Shown here one piece after another: positions 4,081 to 61,600 of a stretch of 64,000 bases of DNA; position 1 is the first letter of the stretch; each line of letters starts with the position of its first letter. The stretch lies in assembly GCA_021234155.1 (NCBI GenBank), contig JAJEKV010000059.1, forward strand, positions 62,001-126,000, given 5' to 3'. The position numbers were made by a program, and so were the translations under genes. The notes beneath the pieces were generated by a model. It ran no database searches, was not told the DNA's origin, and saw nothing but the letters and a program-made list of their open reading frames with translations. This DNA is from Isoetes taiwanensis. Taxonomy: Eukaryota > Streptophyta > Lycopodiopsida > Isoetales > Isoetaceae.

Positions 4081-4372
4081 TGAGCTACATTATTATTTAC
4101 TCATTGACCTGCCAAAGTTAGAGTCTGTTGGCGATTTGTAACCATTGCAAAGCTCTATTGGAAACTTTGTATTCTGGAATCTCATGATCTACCTAGCTAT
4201 CTAAGTAATAAAAGAGATGATTGCAGGTTTTACTCACTGAGCTACATTATTATTTACTCACTGACCTGCCAAAGTTAGAGTGTCTTGGCGATTTGTAACC
4301 ATTGGAAAGCTCTATTGGAAACTTTGTATTCTGGAATCTCATGATCTACCTGGCTATCTAAGTAATAAAAGA
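4081..4372. repeat. Two direct copies, period 157 bp
   Basis: A block starting TGAGCTACATTATTATTTAC at 4081 recurs at 4238. Both copies run to CTAAGTAATAAAAGA with only a few substitutions. The second copy abuts the next, larger duplication. No coding content was recognised. Confidence 0.9.
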
Positions 4373-17227: not shown

Positions 17228-17312
17228 TATTTCAGAATAGGATTATCGGTTGCATATGCACTCTTACGCTATTCTGGAATAGGACCTTGCACTCTTATGC
17301 TATTCCAGAATA
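17228..17312. repeat. Three TATTCNNGAATA-type palindromes
   Basis: TATTTCAGAATA at 17228, TATTCTGGAATA at 17270 and TATTCCAGAATA at 17301 lie within 85 bp. The last two sit in a short duplicated context, GCACTCTTACGCTATT and GCACTCTTATGCTATT. This is the motif clustered in the methyltransferase gene at 37.8-41.9 kb. With the palindrome at 16743 it suggests a relic of the same element family. Confidence 0.85.
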
Positions 17313-31623: not shown

Positions 31624-33140
31624 CGAAGATGCCCTTGAAAAAAACAGCTTGCTCTAGAAAATGACACTTTTTTCCTTCTAATTGGGAATTCCAGTAGGCT
31701 TAATTTTTTTTACCTCCTTTTTGGCCCCTTAGTGCAAAAGAACTTGGATTTTGCTAGAAGCAGCACTTGAAAAGGGAAGAATTTAGACATGCTTTTGTAT
31801 TCTCAAAAAGTATTTTCTTGAAAACACCAGAATGCAGTGAATAAAATAATTATTATATAACTAGTAATGGTGCCCAGCGTTGCTGGGCATAAGTCCAGAG
31901 CTCGCAAATGTTTTGGCCACAATAAGAAAAGCGCGCATCCTGTTAAAATAACGGTTGCGATCTTTTGATGCGATCTTTTGTTGGTTCTCACCACATAACC
32001 GATGTGGTCTTTTGTTAATTCTTACTGCATTTGAGAATAAATCGGTATGTGTCTGACGTATTTCAACATGAGATTAGTTGTATTATGGATACCAATATGT
32101 TGCAATATGTATGTTGAATGAGGCATATGTTGTTAATAGGAAATGTGTAAAATGTTCTAAGACTTTAATTGTATATTTGCTTGCAACTTTTATCAATGTC
32201 AAATGTAATTTGATTAGTCTTTGCTTTATCTTAATCAATGGAATTGCTCTTAAAAAACATATTCACACAAATGTTTCATGTTTATTGTTATCTTTAATGA
32301 GTTTATAACTGGTTTCCAACTTTTTGGTAAATGCGTGCAATGCAGAGTTATCCAAGGCCGTTGGAACTTGGGGTTCCTTTATAAACCTTAAATCTTTTTC
32401 AAAGATAGTCACTTTGCATCATGCAAAAGCAACAAAAATTCTATTTGCAAAGGACATAAGTTTAAGAAAGTCTAAAAGTCCACAACAATGAACTAAAAAC
32501 AGCCCGTCCACAATAACCACCAATATAACATAACAAACACATCAAAGAAACAAACAAAACCCCTTTCAGTAGGTTCCCCAATGACGCATCTTGCAGTTTT
32601 GTTGGCTTTTGTTTTTATTGAAATTATTTGGGCCATTCGATAGGGCATTTTTCTCCCAAGGTTTATGCCTGCGGCGGTTTGAGGCAGCCGGAGTTGGGAT
32701 GTCCGAAAAAGGGGGAGTCTGAACGTGTGATTGTCTATGATTGTCTTTCGTTTCTAGAGCTGGACGATTTTTGGTGGAGGCCATGCCTTTTTATTCGTTT
32801 ATCTCTTGTTCATTCTTTGTTCTAGGGCCCAGGTAGCTTGCGAGGTAGGTTCGGCAGTCCGTGATCAATTTTTAGCCCTCTTTTCGGTTAAACTTCTTCC
32901 ACGGCTATTCGGAAGCAATCATTGGCCATTTCTGATTGGGTTTTATTTCTCAAGGATGGAATTTTTCCCGGAGGAATTTTTGCTTGTGTTGATCGAGTTT
33001 TTCTTCTTGTTGTTCTCCTCTCTTTTGGGATTGGTGTGCTTGTGCCGATCAAAGGGTTTTCTTTGCTATTGTTAAGCCCCTCTTCATCATTGGATTTTGG
33101 AACACGGTGTTTTGCCCGTGGGGTCCAATTCCCCTACCGG

Positions 33141-36638: not shown

Positions 36639-36930
36639 CGCCTTCCCACGCCAACCAAGAATCTAACAAAAAAAACACAAAAAAAACATCTAAAGAAACT
36701 GACGTGGCATCATCTCCTCCATTGGCTTGATCAAATCTGGAGCGTCCAAATTAGGGCTGGGTCCAACACTTACACAATAACATTATCGCCTTCCTCGCCA
36801 ACCAAGAATCTAACAAAAAAAACACAAAAAAAACATCTAAAGAAACTGACGTGGCATCATCTCCTCCATTGGCTTGATCAAATCTGGAGCGTCCAAATTA
36901 GGGCTGGGTCCAACACTTACACAATAACAT
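36639..36930. repeat. ~146-bp direct duplication at the 5' end of Helitron copy 1
   Basis: CGCCTTCC followed by CGCCAACCAAGAATCTAAC occurs at 36639 and 36787. Both copies run through GACGTGGCATCATCTCCTCC to CAATAACATTAT. The outer copy carries on into the true terminus ATAATATAGGA; the inner one stops at ATTAT. So part of the terminus is duplicated internally. Confidence 0.9.
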
Positions 36931-37110
36931 TATAATATAGGATAAAGAATGTTTCAATGACACAATTTGTAACAACACATGAAGGTGAGTAATAATTTTT
37001 TTTGTAAAAGACAGACTAAAGGTCCAAATCAAAGTCTTCGTCATTCTTTTTGCTTGTTTCTGCTGTGCCAGATTCTGTAGTCTGAACCTTTTCTTGTGCC
37101 TTACCCTTGT

Positions 37111-40100
37111 CTATTCTGCAGTGTCTTCAGGAATGGTAGCTAGTGCCACTTCTTTCAGCTCTGTAAAAGTAGCTTCATCCTCTAAAGAGCTAGTGAATGG
37201 AGGCTGTATCTCAGAAGGGGTCAGCTTGGCAAAATCGGACGAGGATTTGGCGCCTAACTCTTGGTGCTCATCTGGTAGAGTAGGCAAGGCTGCCAGTCTC
37301 ATCTTGATGAATTGCACAGCTTCTTTATCAATGTCCACTGCTAGACAATTCCGGCCCTTCTTAAGTGCACAAGCTATTGTTGTACCAGAGCCAGAGAAGG
37401 CATCAAGCACCCAATCTCCTGGACGTGAAAACATGTCTAGGAGATGGTTGATTAGCTTTTGAGACTTCTGATAGTGATTAACAATTCTACCTTGTGCACT
37501 AGGGTCTTGTAGCTTTTGAAGCACAGCTGGAAATTCCAAAACATTAGAAAAATTCTGGCATGTTGCTGTGTTAAAATGCTCCATGGTGCGTTTGCCATCG
37601 AAACTCCAGTAAGCAACATGGAGGTATTCAACCTTACTCAGCACCCTCGGCCAGCCGCCATGGTAGTTTATATTTGTTTTGTACCTGTAGAAATTAGAGT
37701 CGTGTCACTAACGAAAACAGAACAAAAAACAAACAAAGAGAACAAGTCAAAGACAATCTTATTCTGGAATAGAAAACTAAAACAGAAAGAAGAAAGAAGC
37801 CCAACGTATTCCAGAATAAGGTACTCGCCAAACCAAATTCTCATAACCAGCTTGCACTGGGGATCCGAAATGATTTTTGAACGTGGACTCCACAAGACGC
37901 CAGTGCTTGGCCGTTGTGACTTGTTTGATGCCGTCGACGAAAGCGTTAAACTCTGAAAATTTAAAAGGCTGACCGTCGTAACGGCTGTCTTTTAGTTTAA
38001 AGCCATAGGGAAGGTCTGCTATGACTAGTGTAAAATCATGTGGCTTTACTGTTCCAACCAGTTTAGTGCAGTCCCCGTGGATGATAGAAAACAAATTATT
38101 TTGGTCGTACAAACTAAACTTTTCATAATCAGAAGGCTCCACTTCTAGAGTCCTCCTATCTGCCAGTGTTCTTTCTTCTCGTGCCAGTCTCACGAGGTGC
38201 ATGAAACCTTCTGGCAGGTCCTTATTTTTCTTCTTGTCCTGCAAACAAAGGGGAGATTGAGACAGAGACAAGTCAAATATGACGTGTTTAGTCAGCGTAC
38301 CCATCCTTCAAAATTTGGTGCGTACTGAACAATACGCTCGTCGGATGTAGCTATGGGGTAAAGCTCCTTGCACCTCTCCCACGTTTCCACGTTAAGTTGC
38401 TCCATCAGAAGTCTGGCAGGTGATAACATTTTTTTGGCTTGAAAGAAAACCACAGCAGTTTTAGCAGTTGGAAAGTGAAAACGTAAAGTAAACTATCTTC
38501 CTGCCAAGTAAACTTATTCTAGAATACAAGTGCCTTAGACAACATTTTTGTTGTTGCAGTAGTGTATGCATTAGGAATTTTTTGAGATCATAAAAGGGCC
38601 TTCTAAGAACTGCTGACTAAGCTATATGAACTACCAATCAGAAAACAGAACTGGTAATCCAGTCAGCAAAACAATTATAACTAACTCACTGGATCACATT
38701 TTCTAGCATAAGTGTTGATAGGAAAGTCCAAATGAGCTCTTGTTTGGTGCAATAGATAGATCTCATTGAGATCTTTCCAAACTTCGGTGGTTTGCATATG
38801 TTTTAGCCCCGTACGATAGTAAAAAATGGTAAAAACCACATTTTTTGGAATTTTGACAATCATAAGTGGTTAAAATACATGTAAAGATCTCAACGAGATC
38901 TATCTATTGCACTAAACGAGAGCTCATTTGGACTTTTCTATCAATAGTTATGCTAGAAAATGTGATCCGATGAGAGTTAATTATAACGATTTTCTTGGAC
39001 CGGACCCAAATCGAACTCTAATTTCTGATTGGTAGTTCATTTATCTTCATTTGGCTTAGTTGGCATGTTTTGAAGGCCCCTTTTTAATCTCAAAAAAACC
39101 CTAATGTCCAGAATACACTTTAACTGCGGAGAAGGAGCGAAAGTGTATTCCGGAATACACTTCTACAACGCAACAAGTTAGAGTGTGTATTCCAGAATAC
39201 GTTTTCGCTGACTGAAAGGATCCGAAGTGTATTCCAGAATACACTTTAACTGCGGAGAAGGAGCGAAAGTGTATTCCGGAATACACTTCTACAACGCAAC
39301 AAGTTAGAGCCTGTATTCCAGAATAGGTTTTCGATGACTGAAAGGATCGGAAGTGTATTCTGGAATACACTTTTACACTACAGGAAAATGAAGATGTATT
39401 CTGGAATACACTTTCGATCCCTCGAGGGTGAGAAAGCATTTTGAGGAGTACCCGACTGCTGTTATCTTAAGGTAGTTGTAGAATTCTACAAGTGAAAAGG
39501 CAGCAATGATGGTAATGCTTACTTGTGCAACTCCTTCGACATTTCTTCGAGTGTGAACTCCTTGTCCACCACCTTCTGCAGAAGCCGTTCTAGTAACTTT
39601 CAGGTGTCGGTAAACCCCCGCATCTCTCCCTCCGGGCGTGAAGGTGATAGTAATTTCTTTCTTTGGCACGTCGGTGCCTTTCTTCTTCTCCGAGACCTTG
39701 CCTTTACTTTTTAGCTCACCATGCTCAAACATATTAAATATTTCATTTTGGAGCTCCCAGATCTACAAACAAAATAAGAAACTTAAAAGCTAGTTGCACA
39801 CTAAATTTTATTCTGGAATACGCTTGTAACATACCCGGCCATCCCTGAATGCTAGCTGAAACCAGTTGTCATGACCATTGAGTGACGCCCGTTTGTTCGC
39901 CTCGTCGTATTTAAGGCAACACTCAATGGCACAAGCTTCTTTAAGTTCAAGGGAGTACTGTGGCTTCTTTAAATCCTCTCCGTACTTTTCCTTGAAGATG
40001 ACATATTCTCTGTGCATAAATCTAATTTTATCGACGAAGCTCATTTTTAACTTGTACTCGTTGTCAACGTTGTGAGTGTTGGCAACGATCTTGGCTTCTT

Positions 40101-41616
40101 CGTCGGTCAAACCACAGTAGACTGCACAGAGGACAGACAAGTACCTAGGATTGTTTTTTTCTTTGTATAATTGCCTCCTGGCCTTGAAGCTGTGGTTCCC
40201 ATCCAAAACATAATGCGTATATGTGTCCGCATTTTCTCTATCGTACTCTGCAGGAGTTTTGCACTGTTCTCTATCAACAAGAACAACAATAGGAGCAACA
40301 TGGGCGTTTGGATTGCTCTGAATTCTGTCCTTGAGGTTCCTTAGATGATCTGCATATATCTTTCGAACCTGCAGTGGTCGTTCTCCAGCTTCATTTTTTG
40401 GAGGAAGCTTCATTGATGTGACTGGCAAATAAATGAAACCTTGCACAAATTTGTGCAGGTTAATCTCTTCCATTTTCTCTGCTGTTTTATCAACCTTTTT
40501 TTCTTTAATGGCAACACCAGGTGCTTTGCCCTTCCCCTTCTTCTTCTTGTGTGCTTCCTGAGGAGCATCTTCTATTACAATTACAGCAGTTTTCCTTTTT
40601 TTAGGCTCTTTAGCAGCTATGGTTTGCCTCTGCTTCTTTGGCGGTGGTGATGGTGGCTGCTCTTCCGAATCTGATGGACTCCCTGATGGGCTCGCAGACC
40701 TTGATGGACTCCCTGATCCATTCCCTTGGTCTTCCTCTTCCCCCTGCTCTGACTCGCTGTGGGCGAAGTCTTCGCTTTGTGTGCTTCGAACGTCGTTGAT
40801 TATGGCACTGAGCGATCTCTTGTTGATATAGTGAGAAACATACTTGTAAAGTGCCAGTGGGTTTACTTTGACCAATCTAAAAAAGGCTTCATCTACATGA
40901 ATGAAACCTTGGGATGTTGCAAACGATAGTCTCCCTTGTTGTCCCGACTCCCCAGCTACTTCACTCACAGCTTGTATGGTGCCCATGCAGACAAATTCTC
41001 TGTCATCGTACCTTTTTGCACCAGGGCTCCGACAGACATGTAAGAAAGTAAGGGTACTGTACTTTCCAGCTGTACCCCTTGTAAAGAACCACTGAGTTTG
41101 AAAGTTCTCGTAAATCCCAGGCGCAATAGTATCATCAACCCGTTTCTTGCTGCCTTCTTGCCTGTACAAAATGTGAGTAAACACAATTTTTTTAGTGAAA
41201 ACACTGGCATAAAACTATTCCAGAATACACAATGTCTTAAACAAATGATAAAAAGAGTACAGAAAGAGGACAAAAAGGCCAAAACAACAATGCGCCCTTG
41301 ACAAAAAAACAGGCCCAAACAAGTCTAAAAAGCAGAAAAAACGCCTAAAATTGACGAGAAAATGCGAAAAAATTGTCCTTTTAAAATCAAAAGTCACGAA
41401 AGTGTATTCCAGAATATACTTCCACCTTCGCGAAGGTGTATTCTGGAATACACTTCAAAGTGTATTCCGGAATACACTTCAGCAGACACATTGAAGCAAA
41501 AGTGTATTCCGGAATACACTTTGGCTTCGCCTTCACGCGAAGGTGAAACTGTATTCCAGAATAAGAAACAAGCTTAAAAATGATTGTACGTTGTACTTTG
41601 TTGCTTACCTGTCCAT
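37111..41616 (-). CDS. ParB-like domain fused to a beta-class DNA methyltransferase (six exons, one apparent frameshift)
   Basis: Predicted exons on the minus strand: 41616-41609, 41161-39835, 39762-39523, 38412-38301, 38238-37829 and 37684-37111. All phases join except for one surplus base in exon 3 near 39600, where homology-like sequence (LERLLQKVVDKEFTLEEM) resumes in the next frame. Total is about 889 residues. Exon 2 holds an acidic/serine region, a lysine-rich likely nuclear signal (KKKKGKGKAPG), then a ParB-like domain: IYADHLRNLKDRIQSNP, APIVVLVD and YVLDGNHSFKARRQL. Exons 5-6 hold the methyltransferase: motif IV ADLPYGF; a target-recognition-like middle; NHYQKSQKLINHLLDMFSRP; and the SAM motif VLDAFSGSGTTIACALKKGR. 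Motif order IV then I is the beta class; DLPY suggests adenine N6, with cytosine N4 possible. ParB-methyltransferase pairs are typical of phages and plasmids. Function here is inferred. Confidence 0.8.
37760..37818. repeat. Two TATTCNNGAATA palindromes in intron 5
   Basis: TATTCTGGAATA at 37760 and TATTCCAGAATA at 37807 lie inside the 144-bp intron. The second is only 11 bases from the exon 5 splice donor. Confidence 0.9.
38563..39106. mobile_element. Foldback/MITE-like element with ~230-bp inverted arms in intron 3
   Basis: The left arm begins CATTAGGAATTTTTTGAGAT (about 38567) and the right arm ends as its inverse, ATCTCAAAAAAACCCTAATG (to about 39106). Arms stay paired through GAACTACCAATCAGAAA / TTTCTGATTGGTAGTTC and GGATCACATTTTCTAGCAT / ATGCTAGAAAATGTGATCC. 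The best-matched part is around AGTCCAAATGAGCTC and AGATAGATCTC. The central loop is about 90 bases near 38790-38875. I could not see a target duplication. If transcribed in the intron, it would form a long hairpin RNA. Confidence 0.85.
39107..39409. repeat. Dense array of GTGTATTCCGGAATACAC palindromes in intron 3
   Basis: Full palindromes are centred near 39151, 39194, 39235, 39277, 39318, 39361 and 39402, after a left partial one at 39107. Spacing is about 42 bases, near four helical turns. A 126-bp direct duplication (39107-39232 and 39233-39358) accounts for part of the array. Several copies are symmetrical over 22 bases (AAGTG...CACTT). Centre dinucleotides vary (CG, CA, TG), so the outer arms are the conserved part. 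Confidence 0.95.
41216..41563. repeat. Second palindrome cluster, in intron 1
   Basis: TATTCNNGAATA sites occur at 41216, 41405, 41439, 41463, 41505 and 41552, most of them with the full GTGTATTC...GAATACAC arms. All are inside intron 1 of the methyltransferase gene. Confidence 0.95.
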
Positions 41617-41950
41617 GCCTTCTCTATGTGGATCGGAATACAGTCTCTGAATATTATATTCGAGGCGCTGGCGCTGGCGACTTGAGCTCAGAGACTGGAA
41701 TACGCAACTGAAGGCGCCAAAATTTCCTTTTAAAGGTATCCATTTCGTCTTGCTCGTTTTCTATGTGAAGTGGAATACATTTAGCCTTACTGTTCTGCTC
41801 GAGTGTATTCCGGAATAGCTTTTAGTTTGCCTTTCACTTAATTGTTACATGAACTTCTTCTTGTACCAGGTGGGCTTGTATTCGGGAATAAGAAAAGCTA
41901 TGCAGTAGAGAAAGTTTCTCATTTCCCTACACTGTTTTGCAGTTCTTAAG
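41617..41950. promoter_or_regulatory. Shared divergent promoter with palindromes and half sites
   Basis: This 334-bp gap separates the start codons of the minus-strand methyltransferase gene and the plus-strand transposase-like gene. It contains full sites at 41807 (TATTCCGGAATA) and 41879 (TATTCGGGAATA), and GGAATAC half sites near 41635, 41698 and 41772. One factor binding here could control both genes. The sites also fit the heat-shock element pattern TTCNNGAA, an alternative reading. Confidence 0.6.
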
Positions 41951-44196
41951 ATGACAAACCGCTTCGTCAACAAACTTCCACCACCTTTCGTTGTCTCAAG
42001 CTCGTCTAGTTCTGAGGACACGCTCGGGAACAACTTCTTTTCTTCTGAAGACCGGTATTCTCCGACTCCTACCTCTACTTCATCGTTCTTGCTTCTCGAA
42101 GAGACACCGAGTCCAGCATGTAACAGACTTCCACCACCCTTCCAACCGTCACCAAGTCAAGTAGACATGACACTGGAATCTCCTTCCAAAGCATCACCAC
42201 CAGTTCGGAGCATGCTGCCACCACCCTTCGTTCCATCCCCCGGACCTACAGATGCTCCACAACAACGGGTGCTCAAGAACAAGATACCCCCCCCCCCCTT
42301 TTGTAGTTTTGCCCCCTTCGTGCAAACATACAAGGAACACAGAAAACACAGAAGACTGTGAGATTCACTATAATTTCTCTCACCAGGACTTCACTACAAA
42401 TGAGGACGATGCTGCAGCATGTACTCCTCTTCACACAACGGTTGTGACACATGGATTTGCAGAATTCTAGTCCGCTCTAAAGGACATGTTTGCAAGAACT
42501 CCTTTTCAAGATGGTACAAGAACAGCTGATGCCACAACCTCTTATGGGCCATCACCATCCTTTAACAACTGTACTACCGCCTTTTCCGGGAACAACTTCC
42601 ATTGGTCTGTTTTCCTCTACAAATACACCAATCGGAGACAGGAGGAGGTTACCCCTAGAGTAGAAGTTTCATCGAAGATGATGACACCAAACGGAACAAG
42701 GAGATTACATGTTCTCCAGCCAATCTTCAAAGAAATTCAAGGTGGATTTTAGTTTGAGAGCATGCTCTTCTGTAAGAAGAAGAAACCTTATGGATGAACA
42801 CAAAATGAGAAGACTCCTGAGAACTAAATGCTGCTCATTGGGTTGCATCAACAGATTTAACATGGCCAAACTACGAAAGATTTAGAGACAACTTCTGAGT
42901 TCAATGACATTGGCGCACTGAATGCCTACTTAGCTTATCATGTAAGACCAGACCGCAGCACCTTCTTGCACTACATTAACCGTGAACAAGTCTGCTAAAA
43001 ATGCTTCATGGTTGTCCACCGTCTAGGGCCCTGTGGACCAAGAAGAGTTGTAACTATGCATGCCCTGGCTGCTGTTACATGGATGGAGAAATATTTTAGA
43101 GAGACATGTGAGAAGTTGCCTAATAGCAACATGTATCATCTCACAGACAATATTACAAAAAAAGACAAGAATACAAAGAGACATGCATTCAGTTTCAGCA
43201 CATCTCTTACTCACACTTCACCAGACTGTGGAAAAGTGAATTTGGCCTTGTGAAAATTCCAAGGAGACATAGAATGTCTGTTTGCTCGAGATGTGCAGAA
43301 TTAAAAAGTCAACGAGAAACTGCAAAGACAGAGGTCGAAAGAAGTAAGCTCATGTCCTCCATCCTATCACTTGCTTTGAAGAAAATTTTTTTAACCTGAT
43401 TTCTTTTACAGACATTGTGCAACAGAATCTTGCCAGACATCGTGAACAACAAGTAGCAGAGAGAAGAAAGCTCGCCAAACACAGAAAAAAAGCTCTTGAA
43501 CGTCCACTGCAATATATGTCCATTGTAATTGATGGAAAAAAAGACAACTCTACCCCATTTCCTAAATATTCCAAAAGATGTGCCAGAGGAATGTTTTGTT
43601 AAAGTCCACCTTGTAGGAGCCATGGTCTTTAAAGGAAGTCTAAAGTGCAAAGTATTTTTGACGTATCCAAACTTGCATGGTGACCCAAACCTGACAATTA
43701 CAATCCTTAATAAGGTCCTGTGCGAGCAAGAGCAACTACCACCTGTGCTCTACTTGCAACTTGACAATACTACAAGAGAGAACAAGAATCAAACACTCTT
43801 TGCTTATTGTGCTATGCTAGTGGAGCTAAGGATCTTCAGAAAAGTAAAGCTCGGATGTTCAACAGATTTTCTGTGCGCCTTAGAAGGAAGAAAGCTTTTT
43901 GTCTTCCTATTTTATTTCGAGTCATTGAAGATTCTTACACTCCTATTCCAGTGGTCGAGCTTCTTAAAGAGACTGCAGACTTTAGAGAGTTTGTTTTTCC
44001 TCAACGTTCAGATAGAGAACTGGCTGTGAACAAGTTGAATGATCTTACCTTTCAACATCACATCAAGTTCTACTTGAAGGATGGAGAAAGCTTCTTACAG
44101 GGGAAGAAGTACACCACAACTAAGGATTGGAGTCCAGCAGAGGGATTGCACTTCCTTAAATTTGTTCCAGACCATTGCCTCCAGGGAAAATTTTAA
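41951..44196 (+). pseudogene. DUF7869-type DDE-like transposase, N-terminal and core part, frameshifted
   Basis: The start MTNRFVNKLPPPFVV leads a region with four LPPPF-like motifs. A run of 13 C at about 42286-42298 shifts the frame (ends PPPPFVV in the next frame). Further on are CCSLGCINRF, MHALAAVTWMEKYFRE and a CSRCAEL cysteine pair. A likely intron follows, from GTAAGC near 43347 to TTTTACAG near 43411. The catalytic-like core reads MSIVIDG, then a slip at an A run near 43538, LPHFLNIPKDVPEECF and YLQLDNTTRENKNQTLFAYC. Next is FSVRLRRKKAF with VIEDSYTPIPVVELLKETAD. The third acidic motif expected between the last two blocks seems deleted. Several stops confirm decay. The family name is from memory; the DDE-like reading is inference. 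The C-terminal part is at 50263-51189, beyond an inserted Helitron. Confidence 0.7.
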
Positions 44197-45245
44197 GGGA
44201 CCTATAATTTTGTATAAGTATAATGAATTGGCCATTCCTTGTAAAATATGCCCCCAAAAGTGTAGCTTGAACTGGCCATTTTTCCTATTTTTTTCTAATG
44301 CGGCTGCAACCCAATTGGCGATTTCTGAACCAAATCCTTTATTATAAAGTTTTAGTGTATGTCGTGCATAAAACCCTAAAACTTTCGACGGCGCAGATTT
44401 GATGAAATCAATGGATCGGACCGCTTGGATTTAATCTAAAGATTGGACGGTCCAATTTTTCCCTCCTAGCTCTCGCTCTCGCTCTTCCTTTCCTTTACAA
44501 TAGCCGGATTTGATCGATCGGTTACTTGAAGGTTCGATAGCCAGTGCTTGCCATGGTTTCCTTGCCCTTCTTCTTGCTCTATGCCGGATTTGATGTTTCG
44601 GTTGCTGAAGAAGCCAGTCTCTTGCCGATTTTCCTAAGAGGCTATGGATAGAACTCACAGATCTGCATCATCTCAGGAGCACATTGAATGGCATAGCCTT
44701 GAGCTGGTTCTCATTCCGGTGCACTGCCACCTGTGGAATACAGTCTGCTTGAGCAGTTTGGCTTGCCTTCTATCCACAAAAATGATAAGTGCAAACAGAG
44801 GATGGAGCCGTTCAAGCTTATCAGTTGGTGACTTAAACAACATATGCAATTCTCATTCCAATAATCTTCCTGCTCCTGGTGAGTGTATTGGAATATTTTC
44901 ATTGCATTGCTGCTTTTAGAAGAAAAAGGTGCAAATTTGTATGTTTGCTCTCTTTTAGTAGAAGGTTCTAGCTTTAGATTTTGAAGTAAGTTTTTTCCTT
45001 CTGTGATTCTTAGTTTCCAAGACAGACATAAGCATATTGTGATCGATAAAACAAAATGGGTATTGATTACATGGTGGGTATTTTATGTCTGATAAATCGG
45101 CCCTAGCCATTCATGTGAGGTGAATCGGTTAACCATTCTGGTGCATAAGGAAGACTAGATAAATTTTTATGTTGTTTGCTTATGTTGCATGCTGATGAAT
45201 GGGTTCCAACAGGCATAGTTCCGTTCAGCAACAAGGGCTGCTCAT

Positions 45246-45559
45246 TGTCAAGGTTGCACCAAGGAAGGGAGAGAAAGGGATGCACACTGAATTCCGAGAG
45301 CGCAAGCTCCCAAAACAAAGCAAAAAGGAATTGTATTCAATGCTATCAATACATGACATACAATGATATAAACACAACGGTGATACTAAGAATAGTCTTA
45401 GCCGTTCACCCACCGCCCACTAATAACAGTCGTTACTTAGTTAGGTCGGCGCTCAGTGCTGATAAGGTGCTTTGTCAGCACTTATGTGCTGAGTGCTGTC
45501 AGTGCTGTGACATCACGTCTAGCAGCAAGATGGTGATCTCGATATCATATATCTCGACA
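45246..45559 (-). repeat. 3' LTR of the Copia element
   Basis: Its partner is 47274-47587. Visible differences are GG versus GA near base 20 and AATAG versus AAGAG near base 175 (plus-strand order). Confidence 0.95.
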
Positions 45560-45641
45560 CTCCTCCTTGATGAGAGATCGCCATCTCCATGCTCAGCCTC
45601 CTCCTCCTGGAGATAAGATCTGAATCTTGGTCAAGGCTTGC

Positions 45642-46028
45642 TTAATCAGGGTCATCCGAAAAGCTCAAAAACCAAGTTTGCATGAAGAGATCGGCTCTAT
45701 TCTCTCTGGTAGGTAAATAGACCTGCTGATCAACTACTGTATCAGGAACAGTAAGTCGAGAAGGATTGTCTTTGATATCCATAATTGTTTTGCCAAGAGG
45801 AGGATGAAAATTGTTTTCATGCATATCCTCGATGTAGGCAATAGAAGTATCAAAGATGATTACTCCGTTAAGGCTTGTGGATTCAATAACCACAAATGCA
45901 GCTACTCCAACAATGTTAGTTCGAAATTCTCCATGAAAATCAAACCTTAGTACCTTCGCTTGACCTTGATCAAGTGTTGCTAGAAGTAAAGAGTCAATTG
46001 CTCCTCCTTGCTTTAGAATCATGATCAT
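45642..46028 (-). other. 128-codon frame in the Copia interior, unassigned
   Basis: The peptide (for example RADLFMQTWFLSFSDDPD at its end) lies between gag and the 3' LTR. It shows none of the pol motifs. It may be a rearranged remnant or an extra ORF of the non-autonomous family. Confidence 0.3.
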
Positions 46029-46429
46029 ATATGATGCATATTCAACTCCTCCTTGATCAGGATGATTAAAATCATCTCCTGGATCAGATGGGTCAAGATC
46101 TCCTCCTAGATCGGATGTGTCAAGATCTCAAGGCCGTGATCGTAAAACAACGGGGTCTTGTAAGCACCGGCAGTGCCGGAAGTGTTGGAAGTCTTTGTAA
46201 GTCTTTGGAAGTTTCGTAATCCCAACGTAAAAATCAGGTTGATCGGGTGTTAGACCCCTCGAGTGCCTCCTTGCATAAACGCTGCCAAAGTATCAGAAAT
46301 GAATGCCACTTGATGAAGTGTTGCTACATTGCCTGAAAATGGAGAGATGAAGGCCACATCAAGATATCCTAGCTCAATGGCTGAGGTATCTACTAATCCT
46401 TGCTTCAAGGTGCTGAAATATTAGAAATT

Positions 46430-47223
46430 GGCATCCATTTATTGGGTGCTACCTTTGCATCGTCGATATCCGAAAGTAGAAGGATCTACATCCACTACTT
46501 CATGCTTAATAGGAAGAGATAATCTGCGGCCAATGTGCTTCTCCTCCTCATCATGCTCATCCCCATTCATGGTAGATTGAGTCTTTGAATGCCCTGCTGC
46601 AAAGAGAGTGGCATGATCATCTTTACCTGCATCTTGCCTCATCGTGGATCTCCTCCTTAATAGAAGTGATTGCTTGATGGAAGCCCATATCTTTGTCTTG
46701 CATGAAGCTGCCGCACAAAGAATCAAATGCATTAGGTAATGATCTGAGGAAGAAAAATAGTTGCATCGATTGTGAGATCGATGCTCTTCTCCAAAAGCTT
46801 CAATATCTTTGGAAGGCGTGCTTCATGCGATCTTGGTTAAGACTCTCTCTCTCTTCCCAATACGTGTTTGTTGCCTCAAAGATGCAAATGCCCAATAATG
46901 TGGGTCTTTTGGTCATGCTTCTCAATGAGAGCATGCCACAAATCATGGCTATTCTCTTGCTGGAACTCATCAAGGATAGAGTCAGCTAAAGAGAACCCGA
47001 TATATGCCATCGCCTTGTCATCTCGGCGCTGCCAAACATGCAAATCAGCAATATTCTTGGCATCCGGTGCAGGTTCTTGGCCATTGACAATTCCCCAAAC
47101 TCCTTCATCTTTGAGAATGAAGATCATTCCGCTTTTCCATTGCTGGAAACCTGTGCCGTCAAAGATTTGAATCGCATGACCGCCAGGGAAGGTAATCTGG
47201 TTGTAGCTTGCATCCTTCTCCAT
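46430..47223 (-). pseudogene. Copia gag-like gene, frameshifted
   Basis: The 5' part (47223-46876) is open and reads FDGTGFQQWKSGMIFILKDE, then GVWGIVNGQ, DDKAMAYIGFSLADSI and NSHDLWHALIEKHDQKT, the classic N-terminal gag order of plant Copia elements. Downstream the homologous frame changes: DRMKHAFQR, then LRSLPNAFDSLCGSFMQDKD, so there are at least two frameshifts or stops. No CCHC zinc knuckle is seen. Gag would package the RNA in trans at most. ATG at 47223 lies about 40 bases after the primer site. Confidence 0.85.
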
Positions 47224-47261
47224 TGCTGTGTTGATCTTGAATCAATCTCAGCACACCTAAT

Positions 47262-47273
47262 GCTCTGATACCA
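47262..47273 (-). promoter_or_regulatory. Primer binding site for initiator tRNA-Met
   Basis: TGGTATCAGAGC on the minus strand abuts the 5' LTR end. It is the usual priming site of plant Copia elements. Confidence 0.95.
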
Positions 47274-47587
47274 TGTCAAGGTTGCACCAAGAAAGGGAGA
47301 GAAAGGGATGCACACTGAATTCCGAGAGCGCAAGCTCCCAAAACAAAGCAAAAAGGAATTGTATTCAATGCTATCAATACATGACATACAATGATATAAA
47401 CACAACGGTGATACTAAGAAGAGTCTTAGCCGTTCACCCACCGCCCACTAATAACAGTCGTTACTTAGTTAGGTCGGCGCTCAGTGCTGATAAGGTGCTT
47501 TGTCAGCACTTATGTGCTGAGTGCTGTCAGTGCTGTGACATCACGTCTAGCAGCAAGATGGTGATCTCGATATCATATATCTCGACA
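47274..47587 (-). repeat. 5' LTR of the Copia element
   Basis: On the minus strand it starts TGTCGAGATATATGATATCG and ends CTTGACA. See the partner at 45246-45559. Confidence 0.95.
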
Positions 47588-47679
47588 CTCATGGCTGTAC
47601 TTAACTCCTGCATAAATTTTTAACTGCATGGAAGTACAATGAAGAAAGTCAAGAACCTCGAGTTGTTATTATAGGTACA

Positions 47680-47880: not shown

Positions 47881-49666
47881 CTTCCTTCCCTTCTCAACAA
47901 GGGGCCATGGCCATGGCCATGTAAAAAAAAAAAAAAAAAAGAAGGGAACCACCACACCAAATAGGGTCTGCATGGCTTTTCCGGGGAGGTTTCATTGATG
48001 TTTTCAAAGACGATTTTAAAAAATTGAAAATAAGTTAATGGCATCGAATCGGGCGAGGTCCCCATAGGATTGAGGTTCTTGCATCTATAGTGGCGAAATA
48101 TCAATACTATAGCCAAAGCCGATAACCCCAACCGGATTGTAACTCTTATCGATGCAACAGAGGAGGAATGCTTTGCTTTATACTGGTATGTCTTAAATCA
48201 TGACAAAATAAATTGCTTTGGACATCATGCTTTTTTTGTGCCCTTTTTCTAGACTATGCACGAGGATTGCACTATTTACGCTCATTTATACATCCTCATG
48301 GTGATGGAAGATTTGAATTTCTTTTCAGTCTATGCTACTACGATTATTGTAAATTGTACATACTCGACTAAACTTTATGAAATATAACATGCAAATGTTG
48401 TTGCAACTATGCGAAACAACTCGTTGGTTATGCAGACCAAACGATTCTTATGCATAATATAGCCTATACTTGATATTAGTTACCGGCGGCATGATGTAGA
48501 CCCGGTTAAAAGTTGAACATGAATCGGATATATTATGGAATTATTTGCTTTCGAAAAATTGGCATCTCGGTTTTGCGAGTTGACTAAACTGTTCCAAACC
48601 AAATCATTTCATGTTATACATGTTGCTCTTCATACATATTGCTCTTCATAATTCATCCACCGTGGCTTCATAATCCAAGGCTAGACCAGATCATGCGTTC
48701 ATGGTTGGTTGTGCCTGTTCGATCAAAGATGCGAGGTAAAATGATTGGACGAGAACAATGTTCATGTTGTGCTCTGTAAAGTTATCTTAAAACACGAGGC
48801 ATAATATTAATATGCATGACTTTGCTCTCAAATTTATATTTAATACAACATTAGCTTTTGGTTGATAATGAAGTCGCATCAGCTCGCAAACTTCACAGTT
48901 GGACATGGCCAAACTAGGTTTTTAATGAACCCGTAATGTCTTTCAACAAATGTGTTGTAACTACATTAAACTCAACGGCCTTACATCACTCTTAGAACAG
49001 TCATTTCAGATTATTGCCATTAGCATAACCACCATAGTTAAAATGTGCATCGATACGAGACTCATCAGATAGATTGCAATTTCTCCCCACATATTTATGG
49101 TAGATACCATTGTTAGAAAAGCTCCCGGTGATCGCTTCATTGAATAAATCTCTTACAATAGGCGCAAGTGTCTCCATTTCATGTATAAACATTTCAACTT
49201 TAAGAGGCTCACAGTCTTTAGTTTTTTTGAACACAGTTGTTTTATGATTCCGTGAATAAGAGAAGCAAAGGAGCAATCTACTACGGTTTTGGGAGCAGCA
49301 TCAGGCAACTTCAAATGCTGCATCTTGGGACATATCTGAATAGCAAGAATTGTGGTGATTCAAAAGCTACACGTAAATTTGCTTGGCCTTTTTTTTTTCC
49401 GAAGAAACTACATTTCCCATAAGTTCTCTAGCACCCGTCTTTTATGTTTAGGGTCCTTGCAGTTGCAACCCCTCAACACAACATTAAACCCATGGTATTG
49501 TGTAATGTTGAAAATCCTTTATAGGTTCAAACTACTTTTCCACTGCATTCGGCCAAAATTCGGCTTGGTTACAAAAGTTGGATTATTACTACACGCTTTT
49601 CTCATTTTAGCCAAAACATTTACAAGCTCTCAACTTATGCCCAGCAACGCTGGGCACCATTACTAG

Positions 49667-50262
49667 TATCTAATAATGTGTAGCTCAAATGGCAATTTTT
49701 AGCTAGATAAATATAGAGCTAGTTGCCCGAACATAAAAAAGTCGCTACCCTATCTAAATGTATTTAAGTTACATGTTGTATGAATTTTAATTCATACCCC
49801 ATATATTTCAATAATGCACATATTACTAGTAGGGAGAATCAGAAAACAAATGCCAGAGTCTTCGTAAAGAGGATTGAAAAGTGCCTCGACATTTGATTTT
49901 CCAAAAGAGCGGGATTATTCTTAGTTGGTAGAGATATTTAGGAATAAAAATTTCTAATAATGTTAGCCCCCCATAAGTGACGAATTTATGAGGGGGCTGT
50001 TAATAAGTTAAGACTTGGCGAACTTAAGGCATTACAGGATTTGGCCAAGTGGCCTAAATGGCCATTCCATAAGTATATCTAGTTCTCACTTGGGACTAAA
50101 TTGGCCCCAAAGTCAATACCACTCTAATTAGCAAACATCTAATTGGCCATTCTAATAGCGTAATAGGCAATAAAGTGCCACGAAATGGCGAATCTGCAGG
50201 TAGTCCGTAGGTAAGGCATCCTACTCAAGCTGGCCGTCGCATTTTGCATGAACCTGTAATTT
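49667..50262. other. Host-element sequence between Helitron and transposase C-terminus
   Basis: No protein is recognised. The words TGGCCATT and AAATGGCC recur. It may be an intron or decayed exon of the split transposase gene. Confidence 0.3.
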
Positions 50263-51189
50263 GTGGCCAAATGGCCCACCGGGGCCACTAAATTTTTTGC
50301 TGATTGCCTCATAGAGCATGCTGAGCAACTTCCTCTCAAAAATCCTAAGGAGTCCAAGCAGAAGAAAAGTACCCCATTGACATCCCTAAAAGCCATTGAA
50401 AATGGCATTTCCTCAAGCTTCAAGTACTTCTCAGAAGAAGATCAATTGTGGTGGACAAATTTCTTTCTTGACCAGAAAGAGGTCTTGCAAAATCTAGCTC
50501 TAAGACAGTTTCAAGAACCGTTTCAATGGCCTGACACCTTCCATCAACCCCAGAACCAAACAGGTCCAAGCAATGCTACAATAGCACCTGCAGCAGAGGA
50601 AGACGAGGATCGAGTCATGTACCTTGGACCAAGACGTAGGAATGAGCCTCGAGGCAATATCACAGAAATTGCCAAAGGTATGCTGATTGCTCTTCCAACT
50701 GAGGAAGATGACAAAGGTCGACCCTTTTGAATAGCAAAAGTTCTTGACACAGTCAAGGAGGAAGGCTTAGTAACTAAACTCAAGATTCACTGGCTGGTGA
50801 CACGTTCAGAAAATGCTTTTGAAGGTAGGTATGAATTAGAAATGAGAAGTCAAAGAAAAGGGAAGAAGTCTAAGAAAGTGGGTTGTAGAGATGAGCTGAA
50901 CTTGAATGATGTGACTATATTATGCTATGCTTTTAAATTGAAATCAGACAATCGTCTGCGCCAAAAAACTGTTAATTTGCTTAAAAAGGCTTGTAATTAC
51001 AAGAAAGAGGATGAAGAAGGGAGTGGTGGTGGCAATGCTTCACCATCTGTTGATAGTGATGAGGAAGACAACTCAAGCATTTCCTCCAGTGACAGTGAAA
51101 GAAGTGAAGGAGATGAGGATGGCATAAATGAACATGATGACGTCCTCGATCCCTCCTTCATCACTCCTCACACTTTTGCACATAACTGA
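50263..51189 (+). pseudogene. C-terminal part of the DUF7869-type transposase gene
   Basis: The plus strand reads IENGISSSFKYFSEEDQLWW, DRVMYLGPRRRNEPRGN, ITEIAKGMLIALPTEEDDKG and, after one in-frame stop at 50728, IAKVLDTVKEEG and KIHWLVTRSENAFEGRYELE. It then has LNLNDVTILCYAF and an acidic, serine-rich tail ending HN at a stop (51187). The order (ED.xWW segment, a GML-A box, then a chromo-like KVxxHW segment) matches the tail of DUF7869-type proteins as I remember them, and continues where 41951-44196 leaves off. The Helitron at 44335-49666 lies between them. Confidence is moderate because the link rests on recalled family layout. Confidence 0.6.
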
Positions 51190-55366: not shown

Positions 55367-58097
55367 CTAGTAACGATTCCCAGCGTTGCTGGGCATAGGT
55401 TGGAAGCCTGTAAATGTTTCGACTGCAATGTGAAAAGCGTGTGGTGATAATGATGCTTCGCGTTCTTGGGCTTTACTTGGAACATGTAGATGATATGCAT
55501 GCATGCACTTATAGTCTACATTGCACGCACGTAAAACTGCAATGAACCTAAACCTTAAGCCTAACATAGAATCTTGGCCATCTTATGGCATCAAATTTCG
55601 ACCATTGGATCACTTTCGTAAAGACATGCATTATCGAACATTTTTTTGAATAAAGATGTCAATGCCTTTGCCTTAATGTAGGGCATAGGCTGTCTACGTT
55701 CAATACAAAGGAAATCATTACATGTATCAAGGACTAAGGACGTCTATTTATATTTCAAGTTGATTTTTAGATGTTCTTAAATTATAAGAGATTGCCCACC
55801 TTTTGTGGATAGATCAACGATTTGTCTTGTGTATGTCTAGGTATAAGTATGTCTAGGTATAAGGTTAGTTGTGGTTTATGTCTTGATATCCAGCTTTAGA
55901 AGAAGATTTTAAGTATATCTTAATTGTGGTTTATGTCTTGATATCCAGCTGGTATGCACATGTGTCTAAACTCTTGTAATCAATCTAGCAAGTAGCTTGA
56001 ATGGATTTCTTGAAAGCTAAGAAGGTTTAGAGCCATCGTGTCCATTTGTTTGGAGAAAAGGCTTGCATATTTCTTTGTTTACTTGTACATTAGATGATTT
56101 ACAGTATTGTCTCTATTTTCACCTTCTAATCCTTACATAAAGGTTGCTACACTTTATCTCATTCTTAAGAATTCATTGAGAACATGGTAGATGTTGTAGA
56201 AATCTTCACTCTAAATATATTCCATTTTCCATGAATGTGCTCAATTTTCCATGAATCTGTCTGTAGCAGAATGCAGCTTGTTCATTGAATTGTGCAGTAA
56301 GTTAAGTGACAAAATTTAATATAATTCCTTGACTTTTATTCTTCTTTGGCTTAAAGGCAAGGCATATCTGCTGGGCCATGTCTCTGCTTGCATACTGTTC
56401 GCTGTTCAGTATTGAATATCACATATGTAGCACATATAAATAAGTCAACTGAACGATTTTCTAAGTACTCAATAAAAACGTGAGCCAATTGTAACATGAA
56501 CATGGGGGAGTAATGAACATGAACTTGTAGGAGTAATGACAGGTTAACTTAAATTGGCACCAGTAGACATGCTTAGAGCTGTCTATCTCAGTAATTTTAT
56601 ACAATGATGTCCAGACCTGCTCTACAATCCTGCCGTTTTCTGGAATTACTTAAAGCCTCTACTTTTACAAAGTGATCTATCCAATCTGCATCCTAAATGT
56701 TTTGGCAGTGAGAACTTTTGGCTGAGATCTGACGAAACTTCAATTGAAGTCATCCTCGTAAGCTACCAGCCAACTGAAGCATCAATTTATGAGATATGTG
56801 CTCCAAAAGTACAAAATGAGTATGGTGTTAATCTTCTGTGCATATTTGGCAAGAACAGTAAGATATTGGTAATATCTTCATTATCATGCCATCAGAAAAG
56901 AGCTGAGGGATCCAGAGGAGATTTACTGGTTATTTTGGAACTGCTATCTGAAGGACTTACGCAAAATGGCCTTTTTCACATAAGGAACATGTCTTCTCTG
57001 CATGCTATGCAACTTAGAAGGCTTTAGGTTATTTTTTGGCTTTAAAGCTCTGCTGCTGGACAATGGTCTGAAGGAAGCTCTTAAAGATGAGCCATCTAAA
57101 CTCTGCACATAAGCAAAACAAAGATTAAGAGAGAACAAAACAAAACCAAAGAAAAAAAGGGAAGAAAATTCAAAAAACAAAGGGAACCGTACACAAATCT
57201 AGAATGTCATGGAAAAGGATGTATTGGAGAGTAGATGAAAAAGGATGTGCTTAAAACATAACTCGGATGACAGGTTACTGCAGACAACCCATTATTCCGC
57301 ACCAAATGAACTTTCCAGCTGACTGACTAAAGCTTCCCCTTTGCTCTTGTTACTATTCTTCTCTCTTAGATTTGGTGGTAATGTTTGCCATGACTGTGTA
57401 GCTATGTTAATTACTGTGTAGCTATGTTATTGAAGAATACCATAAGGAATGAAGCATATTATATAAGTATGTGGCATCATTTTTCAAGAATCTGATGGTT
57501 GATATTTCAAAATTAGAAGAAATATGGAAATCATTGTCATAGGCTGGGATGTTTTGTAGGAAAAGTACCTTGTCATGGATTGCTACAAATGCTTCGATTC
57601 TGATCCTCCATTCTGGTTATACTTCTGTTGCAAAGTTCCTCTGTTATCAATTAACAACCCATCTCTTCATTCTCTTTTCCGCATATCACGCCCATCTCCG
57701 GCATCATTTGTAGCCCAAATATGTTGTCTCTTGCTTAGAAATCTTCTATCTAAACCAGCTACATACTTACCCGGCTCAGAAATCTTCGATCAACACCAGC
57801 TACATCCTTGGCTCTGCATATCCGGCTGCAAAGGTTCTGATACGCTTATGATTCAGCTCTGCTTCTTCAAAAATCTTCTATTTTTCCTTACTTGTGTGGT
57901 CCTGGCCCTGCTACCCACCAAATAGCTTATGCAAATTGCCTGTGCAAATCACCGAATGATATCGCCTCTGCAAATCACCTACCAAAACTGCCCGATATAT
58001 CAGAAGCTGGGCCGGACATATGAGAACCCTAAATGTCGAAAATAGGGTTAGGGTTTCGTTGACGACATACTTACCCAATAACATTATAATATAAAGA
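55367..58097 (-). mobile_element. Non-autonomous Helitron copy 3 (2731 bp)
   Basis: The minus-strand 5' end A|TCTTTATATTATAATGTTAT at 58097 and 3' hairpin CCCAGCAACGCTGGG (55379-55393) with CTAG|T at 55367 match copies 1 and 2. The stretch AAACATTTACAGGCT upstream of the hairpin is shared as well. The hairpin has lost one pair relative to the others, so this copy may be older. No Rep gene. A plus-strand stretch near 56705-56880 (reading FWLRSDETSIEVILVSYQPT) is coding-like but unassigned. Confidence 0.88.
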
Positions 58098-58690
58098 TAT
58101 TTGTTGTTTTAATGCTATATTATCTATCGATGTAATTTCAAGAAAACAAGTCCTTTTTGTGCCTTATTTAATGTAAATACAAATAATTAACCAAATATGC
58201 AACATACACTACACTTTTCTAAATGCAAAAAATAGAATTGAAAAACACTATATGCGCTAAAAATAACGCTTATTTGGCGCGATTTTGGAATAGACATAAT
58301 CCCAAAATAATTGAATGATGGTTCTATTTCGTCCTCTAGGTTTTGAGTCCCATGTCACAGGTCCCTTGTATGTATCTTGATTTTTCTTGATAATAGATTG
58401 TTGTCCTTCAAAGAAAAAAAATCAATGTGTCTGATTTACATACCTTTTTTGGATTGGAAGGAAATAGAATTGGATCACTTTTAATTGAGACTCTACAACA
58501 TACAGAGAGTTGTATTAAAAATGTAAATACCCTCATAGAAGAAGAGGATGCATTAAGTGAGAGTGAGGAATTGGATGAGGAATTGGAAACTCATCTAATT
58601 TTTTATGACTATGATATATAATAATGTCGTCTTATAGGCCTGGGAGGCCTCCCAAAAGACGTAATACACTTCACTTCTCTCTGTCTGTCT
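58098..58690. other. No gene recognised
   Basis: A 64-codon plus-strand frame at 58427-58621 is rich in glutamate and leucine, but no family is evident. Confidence 0.35.
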
Positions 58691-58699
58691 GTTTGAGTC

Positions 58700-61600
58700 T
58701 GATATAAGAGATGGCACCTTCTCCAAGTCGAATAAGGCCAGGACTTGACATGGCTAGCTCACCAGAGGGGAGAGGCCAAGCCCCAGGAGATGGACCCCAA
58801 AAAACATTCTCGAGGAAGCCTTTCCTGGCAGCGCTTCAACTGCAGATTCTCGACCACATCCCAAGTGCAAACGGCCAAAACTCGACCTCCACAACGTGAA
58901 CCCTACAATAACCTAGCAACACACAAGGTTTACATTTCGGAGCTCATGTCCAAGTCAGATTCGAACAGGATCTTGCGCCGTATCATCACATAGCAGGAGA
59001 GTGTTGATGCCATAAGAAGGATCCTTACAACCCCAGGAAACAACTCGCCCCAAAAGTCCTCTCCCAAAAGCCCCTGGCCATGGATGGGCAACTCTCCCAC
59101 TCTGGAACTATGAATTGGCTCTGTGAAAGGGCTCAGAACATCGACATTACCCTAGAGACCAAGTTTCATGGGCAGAAGACCACCATTTCTCCAAGAAGAG
59201 CCAATAGCTCATATCCAACAGATTCGTAGTCAATTGGCCTAGAGATGGCTGCGGAATACTGAAATGTAGAGTATTCGTATTTCTTTCGTTGCCAAAACTG
59301 GCTGTATAACTTGGTCCATTGGGTAACTTCGCCATTCTAGACAATTACCGAAGTCAAATCGCTATTCCGCAGCCCCTACACTGCCCGAACAACGAAACAC
59401 TTGGGTTTCTACACGGTCCCCTGCAGGACGCTTTGTGGTGGCACACTACAAGGGATAGTCGACGTCCAACGACGTCGCGACGTCGAAGAACGACGGGTCG
59501 TCGTCGAACATCGACGACATCGTCGTTCCAACGGCGATAACGCCGCGTTCGGCGCCGTTCAACGACGTTTCGGGGATGGCGTGTCGGATTAGCTGCGTGG
59601 CATGAATGCTGCTACGCCAAAGGCTGGCGGGCAGCTGCGTGTCAAAACATCGTCGGTGAACGTCGTTGAACGGCGCCTCACGTGTGAGCCGGCCGTGGCA
59701 CATCCGGCTGCGTGGCTTGCTGACATGCCAGGCTGGCACGCCACGGTGTTCTGCCACGTCGACATGACGTCGTTGAACGACGACTAAAAATCTGACGTGA
59801 CCGGTGAACCTTCGTGGCTTTGCCGACATGCCCGCCGGGTACGCCAAAGTGTCCTCGCCACGTCGACATGACGCCGTTAAACGACGCTGGAATATCGGCG
59901 TGGCGGCGGTTTTGCCAGGCGATGGCCGATCGTCATCGTCCGCATACGCCATTGTCGGCAGGCGCGCCACGTAAGCAACGTCGTTTAACGACGTCACTTT
60001 TTTTTTTTTTTTTTTTTTGGGAAAAAAAAAAACTGCGAAAAAAAAAAAAAATTTAATACTGACGTCGCTTATCGTTTGGAATGCCAAAATTACCCTATGG
60101 ACTAAGTTACACGGTCAGTTTTGCAAAAAAACGACACACACTTACCACATTGCAGTATTCAACAGCCACCTCCTAGGCCAATTGACTATGAGTGTGTTGC
60201 ACATGAGATAGTTTGGCGCTTCTTCGAGAAGGGGTGGCCTTCTGGCCACAAAACTTGGTCCCTAGGGCAATGTCGACGTTCTGCGTCCATTGGCAGAGCC
60301 GAATCACGGTTCCGGAGAGGGACTTTTGGGGCAAGGCGCTTCGGGTGGTTTTAGGGTCCGTACTCAAGGTCAACACCCCCCCTACGCCAAGACCGGGCGC
60401 AAAGGTCCTAGTCGAATCGACAAGGATAGAGCCTCCTCAAACGTAAACCCTATGAGTTGCCGAGGTTCTAGCGGGGTTTTGCGTTTTGGGTGCCGAAGTT
60501 TTGGATAAGGTTTAGATCAAATAGTTTGCACTAGAACGGTCCCGGACAGGCTGTTGTTGGGCAGTAGAGCCGCACACTTTCTGCAAGTCAAACAAGGCCA
60601 GGACCTTGCAAGGCCTCCTCATTAGAGGGGAGAGTCCGAACCCCTGGAGGCGAGCCCCACAAAGCTTCCCCGAGGCCTTTCTCAGCGGCCGCTCACGGGC
60701 GTGCGCTAAAGACCACACTCCCGGATCTCGGTTCCGTATCCGCCCGTTGAATCCTTTGTTCCGGGAACCTGGTCCGAGAAGGTCCAAAAAATCCAACATC
60801 CGGTCCCGAGAACATATCAAACCGCTGGGCCCCTGCGGCGACAAATACAGAAACCAAAGTGTTTTGTCGTTCGGACATTGCGGAGGTTCGAAATGCCGAT
60901 CCGACTTCGCCACATCGTCGTCGAATGCCAAAATTACCCTAGGGACCAAGTTATACGGTCAGTTTTGCAAAAGAAACAAACACTTACGCCCTACATTGCA
61001 GTATTCAGCAGCCACCTCCTAGGCCAATTGACTACGAGTGTGTTGCACATTAGATAGTTTGGCGCTTCTTCGAGAAGGGGTGGGCTTCTGGCCACAAAAC
61101 TTGGTCCCTAGGGCAATGTCGACGTTCTGAGTCCATTGGCGAGACGGATCCGGTTACCGGAGGAGGGAAGTTGCCCGTCCGTCGCCAGGGCCTTCGGGAG
61201 AGGAATTTTGGGGCAAGCTGCTTCCGGGTGGTTTTTAGGGTCCGTGCTCTGGCGTCAACACCCCCCCTCTACATCAAGACACGGCGCAAGGTCCTAGTCA
61301 AATCTGACAAGGATAGAGCCTCCGAAACGTAAACCCTATGAGTTGCCAGGTTCTAGCAGGGTTTGCGTTTTGGGTGCCGAGTTTTGGTCTTTTGCACTTG
61401 GGACGTGGCCGATCACATGCAGTTGAGAACGCGAAGCAAGGGGAACTGACGGAATGGAGTTTGGACCTGTACTCCTCCCGTTGTGGCAGTTAGAAGTCAA
61501 GGGCCGCTTTTGCAGTAGCAAGACATTCGTAAATTCGTAATTAATGCATAGTACGGACTTAAATTCTGATTTTTTGTCAGCTAGCTTCCTAAGTCATCGC

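Follow-up and report, generated by a model that had tools for sequence, protein, structure and literature searches.

Palindrome arrays in the introns and divergent promoter of a ParB-like methyltransferase gene of a putative Isoetes taiwanensis transposon: candidate sites for an element-encoded protein

A 64-kb window of the Isoetes taiwanensis genome (contig JAJEKV010000059.1, positions 62,001 to 126,000), which is the whole stretch of DNA analysed here and the source of all coordinates below, holds one copy of what we read as a putative, decayed DNA transposon, in which a ParB-like methyltransferase gene and a divergent DUF7869 gene lie between flanking inverted repeats. The introns of the methyltransferase gene, and the promoter that the two genes share, carry many copies of a palindrome whose exact form is TATTCNNGAATA. 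We propose, with a probability of roughly 45%, that these palindromes are recognition sites of a protein that the transposon itself encodes and that binds DNA as a dimer, the likeliest candidate being the ParB-like methyltransferase. It is the combination of a fixed-core palindrome of 12-22 bp, phased arrays and promoter half-sites that gives these repeats the look of sites bound by a dimeric protein, while the divergent DUF7869 partner, the inverted repeats, the non-coding placement and, again, the promoter half-sites support a protein encoded by the element itself.

The exact palindrome occurs 21 times in the window, against a mean of 0.09 and a maximum of 1 in 100 dinucleotide shuffles, which rules out a chance origin of the array. 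A preliminary description of this DNA had reported about 19 copies between 37760 and 41890, confined to the introns and promoter of the gene. The count was accurate, since exactly 19 of the 21 fall within these 4.1 kb, but the confinement was overstated, since two exact sites and one with a single mismatch form an outlying cluster about 20 kb from the gene (Table 1), in which the mismatched site is 42 bp from the nearer exact one. The full GTGTATTCNNGAATACAC is present in seven of the 21 sites and exact GTGTATTCCGGAATACAC in four. The consensus is AAGTGTATTC-YR-GAATACACTT, with the core TATTC..GAATA, and symmetrised counts show flank likeness reaching about five bases either side of the core, for a total span of 20-22 bp. 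At the centre, CA is found in eight sites, TG in six, CG in five, and TA and GG in one each, so that CG, CA or TG make up 19/21. These counts look as if an ancestral CpG had been decaying via methylcytosine deamination, from which just such centres are expected in a window that is poor in CpG (observed/expected 0.605) and has an excess of TpG (1.23) and CpA (1.19); a flexible pyrimidine-purine step required for binding would explain them as well. The 20-mer form of the motif was absent from viral contigs, the paired-site pattern was absent from viral and genome contigs, and the listed matches to the motif in full-text literature (20 of 37), judged by their titles, resemble primers or other chance occurrences. 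Elsewhere in the window, a 157-bp tandem duplication (4072-4372) carries TATTCTGGAATC, which is one mismatch from the palindrome motif, twice.

Within the gene and its promoter the palindromes keep to non-coding DNA. By our exon model, each of the 17 sites between the ends of the gene falls in an intron, in keeping with the earlier statement that none falls in a predicted coding exon, although 2675 of the 4506 bp of this span (59%) are exonic; the corresponding p of 2e-7 is valid only with independent sites, which tandem copies are not. Intron 1 holds six sites, intron 3 eight, and intron 5 and the promoter two each, so that the clusters first described there stand, whereas the one proposed for intron 2 comes down to a single site. 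The promoter is further marked by half-sites. There are nine solo copies of GTATTCC in the window, and three of these, all in the same orientation, lie in the promoter, which thus packs two full and three solo half-sites into about 335 bp. An RNA hairpin was considered and rejected, because the palindromes are strand-symmetric and present in the promoter too; scanning the window for Rfam families and for tRNA genes gave no hit.

This distribution bears on another possibility, that the element recruited sites of a host transcription factor to drive its genes. Promoters and first introns are typical places for enhancers, and the cluster at 17.2 kb would be natural for a factor with targets outside the element. 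We nevertheless consider this explanation improbable, because the motif is rare elsewhere in the window (two of the 21 exact sites lie outside the element), because an array with a 42-bp period sits deep within intron 3 and because a palindrome this long is unusual for a plant factor. The palindrome does contain TTCNNGAA, which we take to be a two-unit heat-shock-like core that lacks the usual three units; a heat-shock element was rejected on the grounds that only two units are found in the palindrome.

The intron-3 array is the most regular. Its exact sites are spaced by 42, 42, 42, 42, 42 and 41 bp, a register of about four helical turns that is kept though the spacers differ. One palindrome is split by an insertion with inverted arms that resembles a miniature inverted-repeat transposable element (MITE). 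When the flanks of this insertion are joined less one base, a further exact palindrome (a twentieth) is restored 42 bp from its neighbour, and the spacing becomes 42, 42, 42, 42, 42, 42 and 41 bp; joining them with 0, 2 or 3 bases dropped restores none. Because the rejoined palindrome falls in register, the array predates the insertion. When four of the eight intron-3 units were compared with five of the six intron-1 units, identity was 100% in the core, 73% in the arms and 29% in the spacers (the spacer of the site at 41439 contains the next palindrome, only 24 bp away). With comparisons within the intron-3 array included, the core remains at 100%, the arms range over 60-73% and the spacers over 29-40%. 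The gradient from arms to spacers between introns 3 and 1 indicates that only the palindrome is common to their units.

These comparisons help to separate recognition sites from a neutral expansion of repeats by slippage or unequal exchange, in which there would be no binding protein and exonic insertions would simply have been purged. Local copying is seen in a 126-bp tandem duplication within the intron-3 array (95-96% identity, 5/126 differences) and a 24-bp tandem pair in intron 1, and a neutral process would also accommodate the further cluster at 17.2 kb. It accounts poorly for units of the two main introns that have the palindrome in common and spacers only 29% alike, for the isolated sites of introns 2, 3 and 5 and of the promoter, and for the enrichment of half-sites in the latter. 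Moreover, decay should leave cores with one mismatch, and while ten of these occur in the window, none is inside the element. Neutral expansion is unlikely, without being far-fetched.

In our exon model, the methyltransferase gene lies on the minus strand, between 41616 and 37111, and has six exons with GT-AG borders. Exon 6 matches PF01555 (E 2.4e-16, 60.8 bits against a cut-off of 26.7) and has CcrM, MboIIA and RsrI among its 13 PDB sequence matches. Exon 5 alone gives no family above cut-off, and when exons 5 and 6 are joined the PF01555 match spans only model positions 132-220, short of the DLPYG motif. By its PF01555 domain, the encoded enzyme is predicted to be an N6/N4 DNA amino-methyltransferase, and the order of its motifs, catalytic before S-adenosylmethionine (SAM)-binding, is presumably that of the beta group. 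A region of exon 2 is weakly ParB-like, with hits to PF20188 (DUF6551; E 3e-4 to 9e-4) and to the ParB family TIGR03764 (E 0.029) that are both below cut-off, and helices are predicted after the ParB-like core in a model of low confidence. Searches for relatives gave little, in protein and contig collections that, in our judgement, contain few eukaryotic spliced genes. For the joined exon protein (residues 220-891), none of the 7998 candidates with the most words in common reached E 0.001, for exon 2 none of 4934 candidates reached E 0.01, and a PDB sequence search with exon 2 returned none up to E 1. In viral contigs, nine stretches with exon-6 and two with exon-2 peptide patterns were found and none was confirmed; among phages, exon 6 hit 363 records, none of them covering 80% of the query, with a best identity of 29%; and the 5.5 kb of element DNA between 37000 and 42500 had no match in plasmids.

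With a DNA amino-methyltransferase encoded beside the sites, the palindrome might mainly be the methylation target of this enzyme rather than its docking site, as the preliminary description had also envisaged. Usual methylation targets are 4-8 bp, far shorter than a palindrome of 18-22 bp or the 20-22 bp over which likeness extends; a short target inside it is not discernible from sequence. We regard this explanation as highly improbable.

The element around the gene is recognised from its partner and its ends. PF25273 (DUF7869) is matched in two frames (E 2.4e-26 and 1.3e-7) of a broken gene that diverges from the methyltransferase gene, and to which, by strand and position, the open frame from 41951 would also belong. 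The DUF7869 model shows a low-confidence fold with an RNase-H-like strand order; the VIA-align list is headed by PRP8 RNase H and integrase entries, which lends weak support, and Foldseek returned no significant row. The gene is probably that of the transposase, a DUF for which we found no paper, under its name or by its conserved words. As for the ends, the inverted repeats score 35 in a strict local alignment, against a maximum of 20 in 300 dinucleotide shuffles, and 73% over 82 columns in blastn (E 4e-8 to 7e-8); it is on these two results that the call relies. An ungapped comparison, in which the two collinear halves scored 22 and 19 and the best scores of three simple shuffles were 14, 17 and 21, was not decisive. 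A third stretch resembling the inverted repeat (57992-58116), which shares 25 bases at 96% with 36915-36939 in blastn, is perhaps the end of another family member; its profile score is not independent, since the stretch was part of the profile.

These ends make it possible to weigh the idea that the palindromes are bound by the DUF7869 transposase and used in transposition, in the manner of the subterminal motifs of En/Spm. DNA transposons of plants often have repeated motifs near their ends, and the divergent gene is the probable transposase. The nearest exact palindromes, however, lie 817 bp inside the left inverted repeat and 2455 bp inside the right one, so that transposase sites, which had been among the first suggestions for this motif, are disfavoured and in our view very unlikely. 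The suggestion made at the same time that the sites serve the encoded ParB-like domain fares better, since the setting fits a protein of the element and the ParB-like methyltransferase is the best candidate for it; the ParB label itself is weak.

How such sites could serve the element may be pictured as follows. The ParB-like methyltransferase would bind the introns of its own gene and the promoter between the two genes, and the bound protein would (i) let the element recognise its own copies, (ii) tune both divergent genes and (iii) keep the element out of silencing by host cytosine methylation, possibly with an adenine or N4-cytosine mark written at the sites. We infer binding, marking and protection by this protein alike by analogy with VANC21, discussed below. 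The fuller version, in which a transposon would have acquired a bacterial-type ParB-like methyltransferase and then evolved a private centromere-like array on which the protein loads, and would mark or shield itself against host silencing, is speculative and on balance unlikely.

Several points weigh against recognition by the ParB-like methyltransferase. As regards the palindromes, (i) they were seen in a single copy of the element, (ii) the 100% identity of the core is partly an artefact of selection, since sites were picked by their exact core, (iii) the intron-only placement could reflect tolerance of tandem repeats there alone, and (iv) the two exact palindromes at 17.2 kb fall outside the element. 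As regards the protein, (i) its likeness to ParB is weak, under curated cut-offs, (ii) the arginine of what we take to be the ParB-type GxxR motif, for cytidine triphosphate (CTP), appears by eye as S in DGNHSF, (iii) the model of the ParB-like region is poor (predicted local distance difference test, 52.5) and a fold search gave no match with E under 0.001, and (iv) the frame break in exon 3 and the out-of-phase junction of exons 5 and 6 in the exon model imply that this copy, or its assembly, is damaged. As regards the element, (i) a looser gapped alignment of the inverted repeats is not significant (score 79, the best of 100 shuffles reaching 80), (ii) these repeats are diverged, and no target-site duplication was seen by eye in the flanks inspected, and (iii) a deletion in the probable transposase gene has removed the DUF7869 segment alignable to FLLVGHTHDQIDQMF of relatives.

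Table 1. Coordinates of the element, its genes and the palindromes in the window
Feature	Position	Strand	Remarks
Outlying palindrome cluster	17228-17312	none	TATTTCAGAATA at 17228 (one mismatch); exact sites at 17270 and 17301
Left inverted repeat	36865..36943	+	Outer part inside a 147-bp tandem duplication (36639-36933)
Exon 6	37111..37684	-	C-terminal part of methyltransferase; DAFSGSGTT (SAM-binding, motif I)
Intron 5 palindromes	37760..37818	none	Sites at 37760 and 37807
Exon 5	37825..38238	-	DLPYG, a putative variant of the catalytic motif DPPY
Exon 4	38301..38412	-	Open frame, GT-AG borders
Intron 3 palindrome upstream of insertion	38515..38526	none	Exact match
Inverted-repeat insertion (MITE-like)	38569..39106	none	Inverted arms; splits one intron-3 palindrome
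Intron 3 array	39107..39408	none	Seven exact palindromes and right half of the split one
Exon 3	39523..39762	-	Reading frame disrupted in this copy or assembly
Intron 2 palindrome	39809..39820	none	Single exact site
Exon 2	39835..41161	-	N-terminal region; linker of low complexity; weakly ParB-like region (DGNH motif)
Intron 1 palindromes	41216..41563	none	Sites at 41216, 41405, 41439, 41463, 41505 and 41552
Exon 1 (start codon)	41609..41616	-	Exon model
Divergent promoter	41617..41950	none	Full sites at 41806 and 41879; pair of everted half-sites at 41649
Promoter solo half-sites GGAATAC	41635, 41697, 41772		Within the divergent promoter
Broken DUF7869 gene	41951..44196	+	DUF7869 at 43529-44196; divergent from the methyltransferase gene
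Right inverted repeat	44334..44415	-	Pairs with 36865-36943

Other repeats and open frames were noticed around the element. Two 74-base inverted copies, about 90% alike, flank it at 31860-31933 (minus strand) and 49594-49667 (plus strand); they read a hairpin GCCCAGCaacGCTGGGC, then ACCATTA, CTAG and T, in opposite orientation on the two sides of the element, and have the look of what we take to be Helitron 3' ends. Plant Helitrons often carry RPA70-like genes, and an RPA70-like gene is found at 7688-9245 on the minus strand (Rep_fac-A_C, E 5.5e-43), split over two frames. Adjoining the right inverted repeat is a short long terminal repeat element (45253-47600), with two direct repeats, similar by eye, around a copia-type gag fragment (PF14223). 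Introns, this gag fragment and the RPA70-like gene all point to eukaryotic DNA, which at a guess is plant-like. Two adjoining open frames at 50260-51189 have no Pfam match and may, as a guess, belong to a further transposon protein. Two related open frames (60525-61022 and 61652-62152), each with KITLGTKLYGQFCKRNKHLRPTL, lie where the window is richest in GC; the first of them has no Pfam match.

Private motif arrays of an element are already known from VANDALs, the MuDR-type transposons of Arabidopsis that encode the anti-silencing VANC proteins (Hosaka et al. 2017, PMC5735166; Sasaki et al. 2023, PMC10398659), and the closest known arrangement is that of the VANC21 sites in VANDAL21. VANC21 binds YAGTATTAY both in vivo and in vitro, at sites in the non-coding DNA of this element; the motif is repeated in tandem within introns of VANC21 and VANB21 as well as upstream of VANA21, the transposase gene, and CG methylation is lost locally where VANC21 sits (PMC5735166). 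The likeness is that a short repeated motif is found here too in the introns of a putative regulator and upstream of a probable transposase gene; the differences are that the VANC21 motif has nine bases and is not palindromic, whereas the present one is a 12-22 bp palindrome, and that VANC carries DUF1985 and DUF287, whereas here there is a predicted ParB-like methyltransferase. Neither DUF1985 nor DUF287 was found in Pfam scans of exons 2, 3, 5 and 6, and the present protein is therefore not a VANC member but only has a similar arrangement.

Likeness to bacterial systems is of two kinds. ParB/parS and KorB/VirB-type systems resemble the present pair in having a ParB-like region and a palindromic site, and by their abstracts KorB represses at long range and VirB counteracts silencing; the present gene differs in being eukaryotic and intron-containing, in having a methyltransferase and in a ParB likeness that stays under cut-off. 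Methylases of the CcrM/MboIIA/RsrI type and of phages (RcWata gene 52) have PF01555 and, with DLPYG as the presumed catalytic motif, the catalytic-before-SAM order in common with it, whereas here DLPY would replace DPPY and the domain is split over introns. In RcWata gene 52, the one phage protein compared, Pfam found no ParB family at E 0.01, and the protein does not resemble the ParB-like stretch of exon 2. As for mobile elements that carry a DNA-modifying enzyme, retrotransposons are said to include some with cytosine methyltransferases (PMC5890265), and fungal DNA transposons carry TET/JBP (PMC12730594). The present element would likewise be a mobile element with a DNA-modification enzyme, but those carry C5 methyltransferases or dioxygenases, whereas this one has a predicted bacterial-type amino-methyltransferase and a palindrome array in its own gene. 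Among the papers listed in literature searches, judged by titles and the beginnings of abstracts, none describes a system that combines ParB or an adenine methyltransferase with eukaryotic transposons, and to that extent a ParB-like amino-methyltransferase as the presumed reader of an element's own motif array would be undescribed.

If the protein of the element does bind these sites, a transposon outside the VANDAL family would have come to recognise itself sequence-specifically, via an unrelated protein of bacterial type, and would offer a natural pair of site and methyltransferase for studying non-C5 DNA methylation in a eukaryote.

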